Source of the DNA: Flavobacteriia bacterium
GTDB taxonomy: Bacteria > Bacteroidota > Bacteroidia > Flavobacteriales_D > Crocinitomicaceae
Assembly (NCBI GenBank): GCA_947455515.1
Contig: CANGOF010000009.1
Location: forward strand, 1-48,225
Length of the DNA: 48,225 nt
Direction of reading: 5' to 3'
A model generated the notes under the pieces. It was not told where the DNA came from. It did no database searches and saw only the letters and a program-made list of their open reading frames with translations. Below are positions 14,343-24,020 of this stretch, one piece after another; the first letter of the stretch is position 1; each line of letters opens with the position of its first letter. A program made the position numbers and the translations under genes.

Positions 14343-16505
14343 ATGATTCTATATTCCAATTTTAAAAAAGACCTTCCTGCGGGTTTAGTCGTTTTTCTTG
14401 TCGCACTCCCCTTATGTATCGGAGTAGCATTAGCCAGTGGTACTTCTCCAATGTCAGGAGTTCTTTCTGGAATTATTGGCGGTATCGTAGTAGGTATTAT
14501 TAGCCGTTCACACATAAGTGTTAGTGGACCCGCAGCAGGCTTAACTGCCGTAGTTGCTTCTGCCATTCATCAATTGGGAGATTTTCAAACTTTTTTGATG
14601 TGCGTAGTCATCGCTGGTATTTTTCAAATTATTAGTGCTTATTTAAGAGGTGGATTTGTTGCTAACTACATTCCATCCAACGTAATCTCAGGCTTAATTG
14701 CATCAATAGGTATTATCTTAATTTTAAAACAAATTCCTCACGCATTTGGGTATGATGGAATTGCAGAGGAAGATTTTTCATTCATTCAATCCGATCATAA
14801 AAATACATTTACAGAATTGTTTGAAATATTAAATTACTTCTCTTATGGAGCTATTGTAATTAGTATTTTATCCATTCTTATTATTGTTTTATGGAAAAAG
14901 ATTACAATTAATTGGCTTAAAATCATCCCTTCATCTATCATTGTCGTTATTTTAGGAGTTGGTCTAAATCACTTTTTTAAAGTATACTTTCCATTTTTAA
15001 CCATACATAACGACCATTTAGTGTCTATCCCCAAAATTGATAGTCTAAATTCTGTTTTTACTTATCCAACTATTGAATCATTAGCGAATAAAGATGTTTG
15101 GATTATCGGTTTCAGTATTTTCATTATCGCTTCGTTGGAGTCATTACTTAATTTAGAAGCAGTGTCTAAAATCGATCGACACCATCGTAAAGTTTCTCCT
15201 AATAAAGAATTACTCGCTCAAGGATATGGAAACTTAATTGCAGGATTAATCGGAGGTATTCCTATCACTTCGGTGATTGTTCGTAGTTCCGTAAATAATG
15301 ATGCAGGAGCAAAATCCAAAATATCTACCATTTTTCATGGAGTTCTTTTGATACTAAGTATTCTTCTACTAACACCTATACTCAATCAAATTCCATTAGC
15401 TTCTTTAGCTGCAATATTAATAATCACAGGGTATAAATTAGTAAATCCTAATGTCTTCATTGAAAAATATAAAAAAGGCTGGAATCAATTTATACCATTT
15501 TTCATAACCATTGTTGCCATTTTTTTCTCAGACTTATTAGTTGGAACCCTAATTGGATTAGCAGTAAGTATCCTTTTCATTCTAAAGAGTAACTTAAAAA
15601 ATCCGTTCAAAATAAAAACGGAAAAAATGAATGTGAAAGAAACGATTACCATCGAACTTCCAAACCAAGTTTCTTTCTTAAACAAGGCTTCTATCAAAAA
15701 CACCTTGTGGAAGTTACCAAAAAACTCAAATGTAATCATTGAAGCCAAAAACAGTGATTTTATTGATGAGGATATTTTGGAAATATTTAAAACATTCAAA
15801 AAAACCATTGCTGTAGAAAATAATATCTCTTTGAATATCTATGGGTTTAAACAAAAATTTAAAATTGAAGATCAAATTCAATTCAGTAATGTTATTGATA
15901 AAGAAGAACAAGAAAACTTAACTTCTCATGAAATTTTAGAGATTTTAGTCAAGGGAAATAAACGTTTCGCAGAAGGTGAATTTTCGGAAAAATATTTAAA
16001 CGAACAGGTCCTTGCAACTTCACATCATCAAAACCCAATTGCTGTTATAGTATCTTGTATCGACTCAAGAACGAGTCCAGAATTAGTGTTCGACCTTGGG
16101 ATTGGAGATTTAATTTCAATTCGTATCGCTGGAAACATTATCAATAAAGAAATAATAGAAAGTATTGAATTTGCTTGCCAAAAAATTGGAACTAAATTAA
16201 TTGTGGTACTTGGACATTCCAACTGTGGAGCTGTAACTTTTGCGATAAATTCTGGAGCGGAGCAATACGCTACAATAACCTCAAAAATCCAAAGCTCTAT
16301 TGAAATTTGTGGTTGTAACGCCGAAAAATTGGAGGAAGATCCTGAATTATTAGATAAAGTAATTAAACTAAATACAAATAATTCTATTACCGAAATTTTG
16401 CTGAACAGCTCTTATTTAAAACAGGAAATTGAAACACAAAATCTAACAATTGTATCTGGATTTTACGATACTAGGAATGGCTTGGTAGAATTTGTAGAAT
16501 TTTGA
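14343..16505 (+). CDS. SulP transporter fused to STAS and beta-carbonic anhydrase
   Basis: This is a single 720-residue protein joining three parts. Residues 1 to about 420 are a SulP transport domain (SGPAAGL motif, GNLIAGLIGGIPITS). Residues about 430-510 form a STAS-like domain. Residues about 530-720 are a beta-class carbonic anhydrase. The enzyme's zinc site is intact: C572 and D574-R576 in CIDSR, H625 and C628 in GHSNCG. SulP-carbonic anhydrase fusions are known in bacteria and are taken as bicarbonate transporters that couple uptake to CO2/HCO3- interconversion on the cytoplasmic side. Together with dabAB and the first SulP gene it makes this a carbon-acquisition region. The gene is preceded by a terminator-like hairpin and faces the ABC-F gene across a palindrome. 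Confidence 0.93.
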   Translation: MILYSNFKKDLPAGLVVFLVALPLCIGVALASGTSPMSGVLSGIIGGIVVGIISRSHISVSGPAAGLTAVVASAIHQLGDFQTFLMCVVIAGIFQIISAYLRGGFVANYIPSNVISGLIASIGIILILKQIPHAFGYDGIAEEDFSFIQSDHKNTFTELFEILNYFSYGAIVISILSILIIVLWKKITINWLKIIPSSIIVVILGVGLNHFFKVYFPFLTIHNDHLVSIPKIDSLNSVFTYPTIESLANKDVWIIGFSIFIIASLESLLNLEAVSKIDRHHRKVSPNKELLAQGYGNLIAGLIGGIPITSVIVRSSVNNDAGAKSKISTIFHGVLLILSILLLTPILNQIPLASLAAILIITGYKLVNPNVFIEKYKKGWNQFIPFFITIVAIFFSDLLVGTLIGLAVSILFILKSNLKNPFKIKTEKMNVKETITIELPNQVSFLNKASIKNTLWKLPKNSNVIIEAKNSDFIDEDILEIFKTFKKTIAVENNISLNIYGFKQKFKIEDQIQFSNVIDKEEQENLTSHEILEILVKGNKRFAEGEFSEKYLNEQVLATSHHQNPIAVIVSCIDSRTSPELVFDLGIGDLISIRIAGNIINKEIIESIEFACQKIGTKLIVVLGHSNCGAVTFAINSGAEQYATITSKIQSSIEICGCNAEKLEEDPELLDKVIKLNTNNSITEILLNSSYLKQEIETQNLTIVSGFYDTRNGLVEFVEF

Positions 16506-18538: not shown

Positions 18539-19522
18539 CTACCCCAACATCTCCATAAACGCATCAATCTTTTTATATATTTCGGAGAAAAATTTGTTTC
18601 TAATCTTCTGTGAACATTTGGATAATGGAATGGAATTATCAATAATACGTTTAATCCAGCGCTCATTTTCTTCTATAAATAAAGAATCTTCGCACTTTAA
18701 CACATTAAATGTATTGAAACTTAAATACAGGTAATTTACCTCTGCTAATTTGGCTAAAATACAGTTGTTCCCAATCGTAATGTCACTCAAATACAATTGA
18801 AATTGATCGCGGGTTTGACCTTCATTTTTATGGCCTTGAATGGTTTGTTGTTCGATTTTTTCTACCATCAACCTCAATTCTTTGCAAATCGCTAAACTGG
18901 TTTCATTGGATCGTATATATCCTGCTTCTGTATAAAATTCAATTTGCTTCAACAAACTATTGATAGTATTCTCCGTCCAAATTTCAATCGAAGGAACATG
19001 TTTGTATTGTTGCGACAAGCGTCTAGAAAGTATGATAAGTTCTTCATCAATAAGTTCTTCTGAAAAAACTTTATCCTGAAAAACATCCGTATACAATATC
19101 GATTTTTGCCAATAAAACAGCTTAAAGGCTCCCAACAGTGGAAAATCAAAATAATGAAACAAAGGAATATCCTCAGCACAAAAAATTAATTCACTCGCCT
19201 GATCTAATTGTATATGCGTTAAGTCATCACTCAATTTTTTCAAGTAACGATACATTTCTGTTGAGTCGCTCGTATATGTCGTGTAATCAAAATTCACCGA
19301 ACCTTGCGACAATTGAAATGGGTTTTGTAACTTAAAATGGGTAATTAACACGGTTGCTTCGTCCAAGGATAAAGCAGTCTCACCACGCATTCTGCGATAA
19401 ACAGCATCTTTACTTATTTGTAATAAGTCAGCAATTTCATCCGCATACGAATAGGTATGTTGAATTTTCTCTTTGATTTTTTCGAGTAATTCGATTTGGT
19501 GATTGAATTTGTTAATTTTCAT
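18539..19522 (-). CDS. HTH transcriptional regulator (Bacteroidota-type, XRE-like N-terminus)
   Basis: This is a predicted cytoplasmic DNA-binding regulator of 327 residues. I chose the ATG at 19522 (MKINKF) because an upstream in-frame codon adds only a basic and hydrophobic stretch lacking family character. A helix-turn-helix lies at about residues 24-62 (IADLLQISKDAVYRRMRGET). The long C-terminal part is helical with no recognisable ligand domain. Similar proteins with one HTH and a roughly 250-residue unknown domain are common in Bacteroidota. It is divergent from the outer-membrane protein/lipid-enzyme unit starting at 19801, and the region between holds several inverted repeats. A local regulatory role is therefore the natural inference. 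Confidence 0.75.
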   Translation of the reverse strand: MKINKFNHQIELLEKIKEKIQHTYSYADEIADLLQISKDAVYRRMRGETALSLDEATVLITHFKLQNPFQLSQGSVNFDYTTYTSDSTEMYRYLKKLSDDLTHIQLDQASELIFCAEDIPLFHYFDFPLLGAFKLFYWQKSILYTDVFQDKVFSEELIDEELIILSRRLSQQYKHVPSIEIWTENTINSLLKQIEFYTEAGYIRSNETSLAICKELRLMVEKIEQQTIQGHKNEGQTRDQFQLYLSDITIGNNCILAKLAEVNYLYLSFNTFNVLKCEDSLFIEENERWIKRIIDNSIPLSKCSQKIRNKFFSEIYKKIDAFMEMLG

Positions 19523-19800: not shown

Positions 19801-20454
19801 ATGAAAAAAATAATTACAACCATTGCTACTTGCTTAACATTTTCAATAAGCTTTGCGCAAAACACTTCGCTTTCAACAGAAAAAACTACTCCACGTAAAA
19901 ACACAATATACTTTGAAATATTTGGTCAAGGTTTAATCAACTCTATTAATTACGATCGTCAATTAATTGTAAATGAAAAATCAGCAACTTCTGTCACTGT
20001 AGGTTTTGCTCATTGGGGATATGCAATAAACAATCCTGAATTAAAAGAATCATATACAGGTATTCCTATTTCCTTCAACTATTTGTTACGGAAAAACAAC
20101 CATAATTTAGAATTAGGAATTGGTATAACTCAAATGTATACCCAGATGGAATGGGACATGACATCTATCTATGCTCCAATCGCTTCTTTATTCTCTGAAG
20201 AAACTATAACTGTAAAAACAAGCGGTGAAATTTCGACTACCTATTTTACCCCTAAAATTGGTTACCGCTATCAACAAATGAATGGAGGTTTTTGTTTTAG
20301 AGCGACTCTAACACCCATCCTAATAGTACGTCAAAATGATAATGTAACAGCTCGAATAGGAAATGAAGTGATCAATACCTCTTTATCCTCCACGTTACTG
20401 ACCGACAACTCGATGCAGCCATGGTTTGGAATTAGTTTTGGGTATACTTTTTAA
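19801..20454 (+). CDS. Small outer-membrane beta-barrel protein
   Basis: This is a predicted 217-residue exported barrel with a signal peptide (MKKIITTIATCLTFSISFAQ). The mature sequence alternates hydrophobic and polar residues, with strands such as KNTIYFEIFGQGLINSIN, and ends in an aromatic C-terminus (FGISFGYTF). The family is unknown to me beyond 'Bacteroidota outer-membrane protein'. It is the first gene after the palindrome-rich intergenic region and lies 66 bases before the hydroxylase gene, so it may share its promoter with the lipid-enzyme genes. Confidence 0.7.
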   Translation: MKKIITTIATCLTFSISFAQNTSLSTEKTTPRKNTIYFEIFGQGLINSINYDRQLIVNEKSATSVTVGFAHWGYAINNPELKESYTGIPISFNYLLRKNNHNLELGIGITQMYTQMEWDMTSIYAPIASLFSEETITVKTSGEISTTYFTPKIGYRYQQMNGGFCFRATLTPILIVRQNDNVTARIGNEVINTSLSSTLLTDNSMQPWFGISFGYTF

Positions 20455-20520
20455 GATAAAAACTAAGATTAGCGATTAAATACTAAATAATATCTATTAT
20501 TGACATCCAATTAGTTAAAA

Positions 20521-21255
20521 ATGAATTTTCAAGAAAATATCAACTCTTCAATTGATTGGTTTATCTATAAATCATCCTTCACTTCACAAAGTTTGTTGGT
20601 ATTTGGCTATTTTCTTTTGTTATATTTTATCGTAGGAAATCTGTTTTTGTACATCTGTAAAACACTCGAAAACAAAAAAATCATTCATAAAATTGTAAAC
20701 GAAGCTGTTCCTAAAAAACAAGAACGATTCGAAATTAAACATTCGTTGATGTCTATCGTTATTTTTGCTTTTTCAGGATGGCCTATCGTCTATTTTGTTA
20801 GAAACGGGGTTGTTTCTCTTGAAAAAACGACTGGTATGACGGTCATTATCGGGGTTATTCTATTGAATTGTTGGAACGAAATCCATTTTTTTTTAGTTCA
20901 CCGTCTCATGCATACACGTTGGTTCATGAAAAACGTACACATAATCCATCACCGCTCGCGCATACCGACAATTTATTCTGTTTATAGTTTCCACCCCCTT
21001 GAAGCAATTCTTTTAAGTACAGTACCGCTAACGCTTGTCTTCATTTTTCCTTTATCCCCTTTAGCAATTGCTATCTATCCGTTTACAAGCATAGTGTTAA
21101 ACTTAATAGGTCATTGTAATTACAGGATTTGGGGAAAACCAGGACCTTCTTGGTTTAGACTCGCAACGTCACACAACGAACACCATGTCATCGGCAAACA
21201 AAACTTTGGTTTTGCAAGTTCCCTCTTAGACAAATTAATAAAAAGAAAAAAATGA
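20521..21255 (+). CDS. Fatty-acid hydroxylase / sterol desaturase family membrane enzyme
   Basis: This is a membrane-bound diiron enzyme of the FA_hydroxylase superfamily, 244 residues. The histidine clusters are present: HFFLVHRLMH, HIIHH, and HNEHH near the C-terminus. Hydrophobic helices lie on both sides. Family members hydroxylate or desaturate lipid chains, sterols or carotenoids, and the substrate cannot be read here. A run of nine T (20886-20894) falls in the HFFLVH codons. Its stop overlaps the next start (ATGA at 21252-21255), so it is translationally coupled to the ketosynthase gene. That points to a common lipid or polyketide product. Confidence 0.85.
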   Translation: MNFQENINSSIDWFIYKSSFTSQSLLVFGYFLLLYFIVGNLFLYICKTLENKKIIHKIVNEAVPKKQERFEIKHSLMSIVIFAFSGWPIVYFVRNGVVSLEKTTGMTVIIGVILLNCWNEIHFFLVHRLMHTRWFMKNVHIIHHRSRIPTIYSVYSFHPLEAILLSTVPLTLVFIFPLSPLAIAIYPFTSIVLNLIGHCNYRIWGKPGPSWFRLATSHNEHHVIGKQNFGFASSLLDKLIKRKK

Positions 21256-23111
21256 AAAACGTATACATCACTTCCATAGGAGTTTACCTTCCTGGTCCAG
21301 CCATCAATAATGATGAAATGGAAGATTATTTAGGAAAAATCAATAACGAACCAAGTAAATTAAAAAATAGAATTCTAAAACAAAATGGCATTCAATCCAG
21401 ACATTATGCAATAGACAAAGAACAGAAAACGTTCATCAATAATGCTTCTATGGCAGCAAATTCAGTTAAGAATGCAATAAACAAATCGAATGTTAGATTG
21501 GATAAAATTCAATTACTTGCCACTGGAACGACACAAGCAGATTTACCAATCCCTGGTTTTGGGAGTATGGTACACGCAAAACTATCCGTGAATAAATGTG
21601 AAGTCGCAAGTTTTCAAAGTGTCTGCGCAAGTGGTGTTATGGCGTTAAATAATGCATACCTATCTATTGCAAGTGGAAAAAAAGAAAATGCGGTTGCTCT
21701 CGGCTCTGAACTTGCTTCAAGGCTGTTTAAGAGCTCTCGTTTTGATGGTCAAGGAATGAAAAATGTACCTTTTGATACGGAATTTCTTCGATGGATGCTT
21801 TCGGATGGCGCTGGTGCTGCAGTATTACAAGATACACCGCACGAAAATCAACTTTCACTAAAAATTGAATGGATCGATCTACAATCGTCTGCGAACGAAC
21901 ATCCTGTTGTGATGTATACCGGAAAAAACGATAATAAAAACGAAGAGGAAACTACTTGGTTAGATTATCCTTCTTATGAAGAAGCTTCCAAAAACGGAGC
22001 AATCAACCTAAAACAAGATGTACGATTATTGAATGATGTAATCAAAACTGGGATAACCCATTATTTTGAACTCATCAATCGCGGGATGTTCAAAACGGAA
22101 GAAATCGATTTCCTATGTTGTCATTATTCTTCTGAATTTTTCAAAGGTCAAATTCAAGATTTACTTATTAAAGGTGGGGCCTACATTACCGAAGAAAAAT
22201 GGTTTAGCAACCTAAAAACAAAGGGAAATACAGGGTCTGCATCCATCTACATCATGTTAGAAGAACTTTTGTATTCTGGAAAATTAAAAGCTGGACAAAA
22301 AATCCTATGCATGGTGCCTGAAAGCGGAAGATTCATAACAAGTTATATGTTACTTACCGTTGTAGAACCTGAACATAGGAATGAAACACAAAAAGAAGTA
22401 ACTACTATTCGTGAGGTAGAAGCACCTGAATTAATTCTCCAACCGTCAGAAGTTGCTGAATGGCTCGTAAGACAATTAACCCAAGTATGGATCAACTTCG
22501 AAACAGAATTACTAAACGTTCCAATTATTCATAAAATTCATTCCGGAAATTTATCCAAAGAAGATTATAAACTATTATTACACGACCTTAGACAACAAGT
22601 CATTGATGGTTCCCAATGGATTTCGCGCGCAGCATCCAATATTGACATTGAACTATTTGAATTACGCTCCGCTTTTATCAAGCATTCTGCTGCAGAACAT
22701 AAAGATTATCAGATTTTAGAACGTAATTGGGTTGCAATGGGATGGGACTTAAAGGCAATTTTAACTGGAAATAAAAACATCGGTTCCATGTCATTGAGTT
22801 CTTTTGTTTTTAATCAAGCCTCCAAAAACAACCCGCTGGATTTAATGGGTTCGATGTTCATCATTGAAGGAATTGGAAAAAGATTAGCTGCCTATTGGGG
22901 GGAATTAATGCAAAAACAGTTACATTTAACCGACGATCAAGTGTCATTCTTCACTTACCATGGTGTTGCAGATGAAAATCACTTTCACAATTTAGAAAAA
23001 GCACTTGACCATCCAAAAATGAATATTGAAATTGCAAAACGCATTGTAAAAACCGCAAAAGTTACCGCTAAGCTTTACAAAATGCAATTACAAGAATTAG
23101 GAAATTACTAA
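21252..23111 (+). CDS. StlD/DarB-like ketosynthase III fused to haem-oxygenase-like diiron domain
   Basis: This is a two-domain protein of 619 residues. The N-terminal 380 or so residues are a FabH/KASIII-type ketosynthase with the full catalytic triad C125 (SVCASG), H291 (CCHYSS) and N326 (GNTGSA). The C-terminal part, about residues 400-615, is helical and looks like a TenA/haem-oxygenase-like metal enzyme: E482 and H483 in KHSAAEH, and H570, D574 and H577 in YHGVADENH are likely iron ligands. The overall plan matches the StlD/DarB ketosynthases that make cyclohexanediones and dialkylresorcinols. No DarA-like aromatase is next to it, so the product may differ. It is coupled by an ATGA overlap to the hydroxylase and lies 3 bases before the DUF6999 gene. 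Confidence 0.85.
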   Translation: MKNVYITSIGVYLPGPAINNDEMEDYLGKINNEPSKLKNRILKQNGIQSRHYAIDKEQKTFINNASMAANSVKNAINKSNVRLDKIQLLATGTTQADLPIPGFGSMVHAKLSVNKCEVASFQSVCASGVMALNNAYLSIASGKKENAVALGSELASRLFKSSRFDGQGMKNVPFDTEFLRWMLSDGAGAAVLQDTPHENQLSLKIEWIDLQSSANEHPVVMYTGKNDNKNEEETTWLDYPSYEEASKNGAINLKQDVRLLNDVIKTGITHYFELINRGMFKTEEIDFLCCHYSSEFFKGQIQDLLIKGGAYITEEKWFSNLKTKGNTGSASIYIMLEELLYSGKLKAGQKILCMVPESGRFITSYMLLTVVEPEHRNETQKEVTTIREVEAPELILQPSEVAEWLVRQLTQVWINFETELLNVPIIHKIHSGNLSKEDYKLLLHDLRQQVIDGSQWISRAASNIDIELFELRSAFIKHSAAEHKDYQILERNWVAMGWDLKAILTGNKNIGSMSLSSFVFNQASKNNPLDLMGSMFIIEGIGKRLAAYWGELMQKQLHLTDDQVSFFTYHGVADENHFHNLEKALDHPKMNIEIAKRIVKTAKVTAKLYKMQLQELGNY

Positions 23112-23114
23112 ACG

Positions 23115-24020
23115 ATGAAAAATTTAGATCCAATTACAGACTTAAATATACACGACCCAAGAGACCCGAATCCTTGGTTAGCCATGTATCTCGACAATAG
23201 TATTCCGATCAATCCAAGTGCTAAAGCAGCATTGATGCGTGATAATGATTCGAAATCGAGAAAATACATACTACCCCTCATTTTTGTATTTTCTAAAATC
23301 ACGATGTTTTTGTTTCATGTATTCAAATTCTTCTTCCCAAAACTGATCAATGCGCCAAAAGCATTACATAATATTTTGAGTGTGGGCTTAAAATACTTTG
23401 TAAGTAAAGACGCAAACCTATTAATTTTTAGACATTTTCATATCGGGAGTGAAATCTTATTATTCATCGAAGCAAACGTCGAAAATGTGTCCCTACCCAT
23501 GGATCCAATTCAACCGAAGGATTTCGAGGATGTAAAAGACAATATTTTCCTACGTCACGACCTGAATTTGTACAACTTTGTCATCAAACTCAATTCCTGT
23601 CTTATTGAAGGAAATAATCCGTTTCAACCCAATAAAGAGTTAGATTACTCCATGATTACCGAAGATAAATTTAATCATATTGACTTTCCAGATAAATGGA
23701 CCAACGTATTAGACCTTCGAAGTGCAATCGAACTATTTACGCCTTTTTATCAATTTTTCTTGACTGCAAATGATTTCGTTCGAGCTTCTAATAGTTTACA
23801 ATTAGATGAAACAATTGCTATCTATGCCTCACGTTTACTAAACACTCCAGCACATTTAGGTTTGGTGAATAACAAACATCCGATGGTACCTGAGACTACG
23901 TATACCGCTGCTTATCGTTTGGTCTTGCATGGTTTATCAGCTGAAACGCTTCATCGTATCTTGGTCATGAACAAAACGAAACAACATGCCGATGGCATAG
24001 TGGTAAACAATCCTAATTAA
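23115..24020 (+). CDS. DUF6999-like protein of the ketosynthase cluster
   Basis: This is a 301-residue protein, which I place in DUF6999 from memory of the pattern. It starts with MKNLDPITDLNIHDPRDPNP and has one hydrophobic stretch at about residues 54-77 (ILPLIFVFSKITMFLFHVFKFFFP, read as ILPLIFVFSKITMF then LFHVFKFFFP). The rest looks soluble and helical, with scattered His and Asp (RHFHIGSE) but no motif I can call catalytic. It begins 3 bases after the ketosynthase gene and is surely part of that operon. Its function is unknown. An accessory or lipid-binding role in the same pathway is an inference from context only. Confidence 0.6.
   Translation: MKNLDPITDLNIHDPRDPNPWLAMYLDNSIPINPSAKAALMRDNDSKSRKYILPLIFVFSKITMFLFHVFKFFFPKLINAPKALHNILSVGLKYFVSKDANLLIFRHFHIGSEILLFIEANVENVSLPMDPIQPKDFEDVKDNIFLRHDLNLYNFVIKLNSCLIEGNNPFQPNKELDYSMITEDKFNHIDFPDKWTNVLDLRSAIELFTPFYQFFLTANDFVRASNSLQLDETIAIYASRLLNTPAHLGLVNNKHPMVPETTYTAAYRLVLHGLSAETLHRILVMNKTKQHADGIVVNNPN

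Follow-up and report, generated by a model that had tools for sequence, protein, structure and literature searches.

A conserved gene cassette in Bacteroidota combines a ketosynthase fused to a haem-oxygenase-like domain with a DUF6999 protein

DarA is the aromatising enzyme of resorcinol pathways, in which its gene adjoins that of the ketosynthase. PMC4578411 describes the ketosynthases StlD and DarB as forming 2,5-dialkylcyclohexane-1,3-diones, and PMC3992019 reports that darB expressed with darA gives a dialkylresorcinol. Haem-oxygenase-like (HDO) enzymes carry a ligand set of three His and three carboxylates on three core helices, as described in PMC13108848. Here we analyze a 48,225-nucleotide stretch of a Flavobacteriia bacterium genome (GenBank assembly GCA_947455515.1, contig CANGOF010000009.1, positions 1 to 48,225; hereafter, the window), in which a StlD/DarB-like ketosynthase and an HDO-like domain form a single polypeptide. 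This fusion is encoded between a membrane fatty-acid hydroxylase and a DUF6999 protein, and no darA adjoins it. The cassette is real and strongly conserved, and we found no prior description of it in the literature that we searched, mostly without subscription journals: ketosynthase-HDO fusions were not named in titles or abstract openings, and no paper giving the DUF6999 name or accession was found. Its product is probably an oxidised fatty-acid-derived compound.

The three genes are packed as the original prediction for this DNA, made from the sequence alone, had described. Open reading frame (ORF) coordinates and Pfam matches bear out a 4-base overlap (ATGA) between hydroxylase and fusion, followed by a 3-base gap to DUF6999. 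The comparison of gene neighborhoods that the prediction had called for was carried out by scanning species-level genomes with two peptide patterns from the HDO domain, which matched 216 stretches, 77 of them confirmed as loci. Selection by two patterns means that distant members are missed, many of the loci are contigs of draft metagenome-assembled genomes (MAGs), and some handles appear to be duplicates (G298 = L076; G064 = L075/G538; G056 = L109/G535). By their record titles the 77 loci are nearly all from Bacteroidota (Flavobacteriales, Cyclobacterium, Echinicola, Marivirga, Saprospiraceae, and one Kapaibacterium MAG).

Neighbors at these loci were identified by BLAST on simple ORF calls. 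A DUF6999 gene lies downstream of the fusion in 73 of the 77, directly adjoining it in 63 and with a desaturase between them in 10; at the remaining four the contig ends come first. Because the loci were selected by the HDO domain alone, this association is not due to chance. Hydroxylase relatives occur at 59 loci, 58 of them directly upstream of the fusion, while the copy at L109 is 33% identical and stands five genes off. At 18 loci, including the Muricauda/Flagellimonas group, no relative was found in this BLAST-level search, and 15 of these have room for one. The next commonest neighbor family is present at only nine of the 77 loci and has no fixed place. The spacing of the cassette genes is operon-like, with a median of 3 bases between hydroxylase and fusion (25 or fewer in 55 of 58) and of 9 bases between the fusion and the next cassette gene (25 or fewer in 58 of 74). 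At one locus (L100) the ketosynthase part is broken. Distance correlations among the cassette proteins (Spearman 0.67–0.77, 52 loci) had no control gene and were set aside as evidence. Flagellimonas algicola AsT0115 carries the fusion-DUF6999 pair twice, on contigs NZ_VCNI01000004 (L094) and NZ_VCNI01000002 (L097), with no hydroxylase relative at either.

The linkage also holds when approached from DUF6999. In a reverse scan of 395 genomes across the phylum and 395 across the class, with the window genome counted in each, DUF6999 was found in five and eight genomes, respectively. Ten of the 11 genomes other than that of the window have a fusion upstream, nine with about 90 bases or fewer between the genes and one (G823) with a 0.8-kb gap; at the seven class-scan loci only part of the fusion is visible within the 1.5-kb flank. 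In the eleventh genome (G335), a DUF6999-like frame interrupted by one stop lies directly upstream of a ketosynthase 32% identical to that of the window. An HDO profile found no match in this genome; it matched only G000 (the window genome), G298, G370, and G396. From this one example, DUF6999 seems to be tied more closely to the ketosynthase than to the oxidase.

A Pseudoalteromonas replicon (L129) carries the same three parts as separate adjacent genes: a ketosynthase of 366 aa, an HDO protein of 226 aa, and a DUF6999 protein of 280 aa, with 2 bases between the first two and an 8-base overlap between the last two. The HDO and DUF6999 proteins are 37% and 28% identical to their window counterparts. 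Neighbors that form a single protein in one phylum thus stand as separate genes in another, which suggests that ketosynthase and HDO work jointly. By gene content, then, the invariant unit is ketosynthase, HDO, and DUF6999, with the hydroxylase optional. The original prediction had placed all of these genes in one operon; its tight grouping of a distinct ketosynthase, a fused HDO-like domain, and DUF6999 stands, whereas the hydroxylase, not found at 18 of 77 loci, is no fixed member. Just upstream of the Pseudoalteromonas ketosynthase is a 185-aa membrane-type protein with several His (L129 9439–9996), ending one base before it; it has no significant similarity to the hydroxylase and was rejected as a relative. 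Relatives of this 185-aa protein occur in 21 other plasmid records, mostly from Pantoea, Erwinia, and Azospirillum, some of them named diguanylate cyclase, and the one Erwinia record inspected has ferritin-like, DUF892, and manganese catalase genes nearby.

The ketosynthase half of the fusion most resembles StlD. Its best sequence match in the PDB is StlD 5gk0 (E 1.2e-82, residues 2–371), with about 40% identity to StlD/DarB across the whole ketosynthase, and a Foldseek search of the fusion model against the PDB returned StlD 5gk2 first (E 2e-32, TMt 0.88), the 50 best rows all being of ketosynthase type. It has a thiolase fold and the same Cys-His-Asn triad. The triad residues C125, H291, and N326 were found where the original prediction had put them, as were E482, H483, H570, D574, and H577 in the second domain, and all eight are invariant in the 56 fusion sequences of our alignment (A3). 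The fusion ketosynthases nonetheless differ from StlD/DarB in their place in the tree, in falling below the NCBI cut-offs, in being joined to an HDO domain, in 11 group-specific changes, and in the lack of DarA in most carriers tested. Position 153, by contrast, is a point of agreement with StlD/DarB, being Glu in 54 of the 56 fusions and Asp in two.

Against the NCBI StlD/DarB models, the window ketosynthase scores 428.5 bits for NF005293 (cut-off 450) and 377.6 bits for NF053539 (cut-off 550), and four other fusions score 430–442 and 386–404, all below both cut-offs. The flexirubin DarBs encoded in two fusion-carrying genomes (G056 and G052) exceed both, with 546–564 and 593–600 bits. The Pseudoalteromonas and Streptomyces ketosynthases also fall below the cut-offs. 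A tree of 52 ketosynthases included 24 fusion rows, drawn from every third of the 56 aligned sequences plus L091, L105, L107, L109, L125, and L126. A branch supported at 96/95 sets apart the fusions together with the ketosynthases of Pseudoalteromonas, a Streptomyces plasmid, and G335; flexirubin-type DarBs form a separate group (99/97) that StlD joins weakly (83/66). The rows of G335, Streptomyces, and two FabH proteins are long and their placement is unsure. Eleven positions, 98, 103, 167, and 290 among them, tell 25 rows on the fusion side apart from 17 flexirubin rows, and StlD agrees with the fusions at three of the 11 (102, 258, and 327).

The Streptomyces plasmid (L130 6706–14352) carries its StlD/DarB-like ketosynthase, on a long branch of the fusion side, with acyl carrier proteins, an FAD monooxygenase, SCP2, FabF, a P450, and a 321-aa protein. 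We considered this cluster (H3) as a variant with DUF6999 or HDO and rejected it, the 321-aa neighbor giving no Pfam hit. Other plasmid matches (H6–H9) are StlD/DarB-type ketosynthases of 38–40% identity in Phocaeicola, Bacteroides, and Prevotella.

The assignment of the C-terminal half to the HDO enzymes comes from more remote matches. Pfam Haem_oxygenas_2 (PF14518) is matched at E 4.4e-5 with 23.8 bits, short of the curated cut-off of 28.9 bits, and the haem-oxygenase-like structure 3dde is matched over residues 415–586 at E 0.002 with the single sequence and at E 1.5e-5 with a six-sequence profile of the domain. An AlphaFold2 (AF2) model of the fusion built with 56 sequences (pLDDT 87.6, pTM 0.65) has an all-helical C-terminal half behind a poorly predicted linker, and the candidate ligands of the domain are predicted to sit on three core helices; the refuting outcome named with the original prediction, a C-terminal domain lacking clustered metal ligands, was not seen. 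When the whole fusion model was compared with viral models by Foldseek, three proteins named as oxygenases or haem oxygenases were matched (E 0.01, 0.054, and 0.065; TMt 0.51, 0.49, and 0.64; the matched part is not told), along with a rubrerythrin-type protein (E 0.06, TMt 0.65). Four polyketide or ketosynthase proteins rank above these, and no oxygenase- or rubrerythrin-type match reaches E 0.001.

From the predicted model and the alignment, the candidate ligands are H478, E482, D485, E539, H570, D574, and H577, on helices 466–495, 531–557, and 561–585. All seven are kept in each of seven proteins compared, namely four close fusions, the distant fusions L125 and L126, and the unfused Pseudoalteromonas protein. 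The original prediction had proposed E482/H483 and H570/D574/H577 as metal ligands; E482, H570, D574, and H577 remain good candidates, whereas H483, which is Gln in L126, is not the best one. Like UndA, SznF, BesC, and CADD-type enzymes, the domain is all-helical, matches a haem-oxygenase-like structure by profile, and keeps E539 together with the H-x3-D-x2-H motif. Unlike them, it has H478/E482/D485 in the first helix, lies below the PF14518 cut-off, and is fused to a ketosynthase. Positions 478/482/485 read H/E/D in the fusion clade and Y/E/H in three relatives from operons with AMP-binding enzymes, two of which (L157 and L159) were tested and score above the PF14518 cut-off. In the fusion clade (all 56 aligned fusions, L125, L126, and L129), Asp thus takes the place of the usual first-helix His, with a new His at 478. 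The window domain has residues enough for a set of three His and three carboxylates, but with D485 where the first-helix His is usual, and the site may be dimetal, mixed-metal, or mononuclear.

The Pseudoalteromonas HDO protein has 16 plasmid relatives of 21–30% identity, and in each of the three inspected an AMP-binding enzyme is either adjacent or part of the same protein, as would suit an activated acid as substrate. A gammaproteobacterial plasmid operon of this kind has the order T_hemolysin, AMP-binding, HDO, SDR (L157 3859–7393, L158 3856–7390, L159 2824–6394), and Pseudoalteromonas shioyasakiensis has both the AMP-binding and the HDO part in one 719-aa protein. This operon resembles the fusion cassette in placing an HDO protein beside, or joining it to, another enzyme. 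It differs in that no ketosynthase or DUF6999 is annotated within 5–6 kb on either side and in the E-x2-H first helix of its HDO, which is 22% identical to that of the window (one compared).

The window DUF6999 protein is a full member of PF22523 (377.2 bits, cut-off 27), a family without known function. An AF2 model from 50 sequences is almost entirely helical (pLDDT 79.3, pTM 0.81); its best PDB fold match stands at E 1.4, and the sequence profile gave no PDB match at E up to 10. We also considered whether the protein could be a degenerate HDO, which was rejected on an hhalign probability of 0.1 and the absence of these PDB matches. In the 71 DUF6999 sequences of at least 260 aa, numerous His, Asp, and Glu positions do not vary, for example H107, H148, D149, D220, D231, E232, H255, H272, and H280, a pattern which suggests that DUF6999 is an enzyme. 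The Pseudoalteromonas protein has Gln for E232 and Tyr for H280 and keeps the other seven of these nine; the G335 frame keeps fewer of them than the Pseudoalteromonas protein does. A match above cut-off in the control genome of Caulobacter vibrioides indicates that the DUF6999 family reaches Alphaproteobacteria.

The hydroxylase belongs to FA_hydroxylase PF04116 (80.1 bits, cut-off 31) and carries several hydrophobic segments. Ten His (127, 131, 140, 143, 144, 158, 198, 218, 221, and 222) are invariant in all 58 relatives of at least 200 aa, and no relatives were found among solved structures at E up to 1. The desaturase family follows the fusion in 11 loci and in a twelfth, L068, where a cut-off frame was recognised by eye; two of three members tested match PF00487.

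A complete known DarA pathway using this ketosynthase would be expected to show a DarA gene elsewhere in the genome. A DarA profile built from two sequences (G056 and G052) matched neither the window genome, which is 86.5% complete, nor G008 (99% complete, with a full fusion), G010 (100%), G064, or G074 (the last four all 99–100% complete). It matches G052 and G056, its own source genomes, where DarA is beside a separate DarB on other contigs than the fusion. Among 28 further fusion genomes, DarA was matched in five and not in 23; one of the five (G535) appears to be G056, and the four others indicate that the profile can find distant DarA. Membership of the fusion cassette in the flexirubin/DarAB pathways was rejected on the lack of a DarA match in most carriers, the tree separation, and the sub-cut-off scores.

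We propose that the cassette is self-contained and makes an oxidised two-chain acyl product, with each chemical step inferred from gene content, fusion, and conservation as seen in sequence. The ketosynthase would take acyl thioesters from primary fatty-acid metabolism, since neither a carrier protein nor a loading enzyme has a constant position in the cassette, and would join two acyl chains. The attached HDO domain would then use O2 on the new product, either dehydrogenating a cyclohexanedione-type ring in a DarA-like role or oxygenating it. A replacement of DarA by HDO is attractive because darB and darA together yield a resorcinol (PMC3992019). DUF6999 would handle the substrate or product of the ketosynthase, for example by binding, transfer, or cyclisation, and the optional hydroxylase and desaturase would vary the alkyl chains. 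Tailoring of the ketosynthase product by HDO and hydroxylase, as originally predicted, fits this scheme as an inference.

We regard the proposal as a whole as evenly balanced between right and wrong, and several observations weigh against it. Given scores of 428–442 bits against a cut-off of 450 in five fusions, together with the 11 residue differences from flexirubin DarB, the fusion ketosynthase may not form a cyclohexanedione. The HDO domain may bind other metals or work otherwise than an ordinary diiron oxidase, given its atypical first-helix ligands, its PF14518 score below cut-off, and the lack of Pfam matches to the unfused Pseudoalteromonas HDO at E up to 0.01. The G335 pair, in which no HDO was found, implies that some versions do without oxidation, and at the BLAST level the hydroxylase is missing from 15 loci with room for it.

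The residue changes in the ketosynthase also leave room for a non-cyclic product. Acyl chains could be joined head to head and the resulting beta-keto or beta-hydroxy acid decarboxylated or cleaved by an UndA-like HDO to a long-chain ketone or alkene, which hydroxylase and desaturase would modify; UndA is an HDO that converts mid-chain fatty acids to 1-alkenes, according to PMC13108848. OleA structures do appear among the Foldseek matches of the ketosynthase model, and residues common to flexirubin DarB and StlD are changed in the fusions (98 Gln to Leu, 103 His to Phe). We nevertheless think such a product unlikely: the ketosynthase matches StlD (E 1.2e-82) far better than it does OleA chains (3row and 6b2r, for example, at E 0.0014–0.0019), the window protein has no Glu 24–26 residues before the catalytic Cys, where PMC4578411 places that of PpyS and OleA, and the first-helix ligands differ from E-x2-H. 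If instead the HDO-like domain were protective, binding, or allosteric, an unoxidised two-chain product would be handled by DUF6999. The Asp that replaces the first-helix His of ordinary relatives throughout the 56 aligned fusions, L125, L126, and L129 is in keeping with this, as are the G335 pair and an Acinetobacter HDO-domain protein that acts against oxidative stress (PMC13232832). A bystander domain would, however, be expected to lose its ligands, and all fusions compared, like the unfused protein from a proteobacterium, retain the seven potential ones (E539 and H570-x3-D574-x2-H577 among them), which makes a role without oxidation quite improbable in our view.

Least probable by a wide measure is that the cassette belongs to a dialkylresorcinol or flexirubin pathway in variant form, with DarA and polyene genes supplied from other parts of the genome. 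The StlD/DarB-like ketosynthase and the DarA matches in G052, G056, and five of the 28 further genomes would suit it, but, with no search aimed at polyene genes, DarA is unmatched in G000, G008, G010, G064, G074, and the other 23, in G052 and G056 it has its own above-cut-off DarB on another contig than the fusion, and the two kinds of ketosynthase split in the tree (96/95 and 99/97). Returning to an oxidised product of joined acyl chains, we consider a bolder form of it possible though doubtful: a new oxidative condensing enzyme, in which one polypeptide joins and then oxidises two acyl chains at an unusual dimetal site (first-helix His replaced by Asp, new His two turns earlier), with DUF6999 as a catalytic partner of new fold and a lipid class undescribed in Bacteroidota.

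There is a fair chance that the cassette performs new chemistry. The proposal gives a testable function to ketosynthases that are similar to dialkylresorcinol synthases but mostly lack DarA, and it provides DUF6999 with a functional context. The fusion is also a natural case in which an enzyme that forms carbon-carbon bonds is covalently linked to an HDO-like oxidase whose metal ligands are altered. The cassette occurs in named isolates, for example Zobellia uliginosa and strains of Cyclobacterium and Echinicola, so its product can be sought.

The carriers are scattered. In the genus of the window, the fusion is present in three of 13 genomes (the window genome, G008, and G010, the last as the first 200 residues only, at a contig end), several of the 13 being only 59–86% complete, and in the window genome the fusion query found only itself at E up to 0.001. 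In two congeners, G001 (99% complete) and G004, the flanking ABC-F-like (named by eye) and TraB genes are kept with no cassette between them, which supports the cassette as a unit. Their interval holds an ATPase-like gene instead, and in G004 also a 983-aa gene. This interval is a variable site in the genus, with the ATPase-like gene in G001, G004, and G010 (L147 10741–11880, L148 5469–6608, L036 5313–6458). In the tree, the window ketosynthase joins that of a Saprospiraceae MAG (97/95), apart from the Crocinitomix and Fluviicola NORP2 proteins, which come from its own family. The patchy distribution of this self-contained cassette in Bacteroidota fits horizontal spread or repeated loss; among 49 pattern matches in viruses, none was a relative.

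Table 1. Features of the cassette and its immediate neighbors in the window.
Feature	Positions	Strand	Remarks
Divergent helix-turn-helix (HTH)-type gene	18539–19522 (from ATG)	-	HTH by eye; ORF list starts it at an upstream TTG
217-aa barrel-like gene	19801–20454	+	Possibly secreted or outer-membrane, by eye; outside the conserved cassette
Membrane FA_hydroxylase (PF04116)	20521–21255	+	Optional cassette member; E 2.6e-22
Ketosynthase-HDO fusion gene	21252–23111	+	ORF; Pfam ketosynthase domains and Haem_oxygenas_2
Ketosynthase domain, StlD/DarB-like, residues 1–371	21252–22364	+	Triad C125/H291/N326
Interdomain linker, residues 372–394	22365–22433	+	Lowest model confidence; pLDDT <50 at 376–383
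HDO domain, residues 395–619	22434–23108	+	Candidate ligands H478, E482, D485, E539, H570, D574, H577
DUF6999 protein (PF22523)	23115–24020	+	Invariant partner; E 4.9e-113

The barrel-like gene upstream and the divergent HTH-type gene are where the original prediction had placed them, but they are not conserved partners of the cassette. Neither protein has a Pfam family above cut-off, and BLAST relatives occur at none of the 77 fusion loci for the barrel-like protein and at two (L039 and L060) for the HTH-type protein. This near-absence ruled both out as pathway genes, and the HTH-type gene is at most a lineage-specific neighbor. In the congener G008, the place of the barrel-like gene upstream of the hydroxylase is held by two similar proteins of 156 and 164 aa with signal-peptide-like starts (L031 10846–11986, minus strand). 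Elsewhere in the window, positions 14343–16505 (plus strand) encode a 720-aa protein that by eye appears to be a SulP-type anion transporter with a beta-carbonic-anhydrase-like C-terminus.

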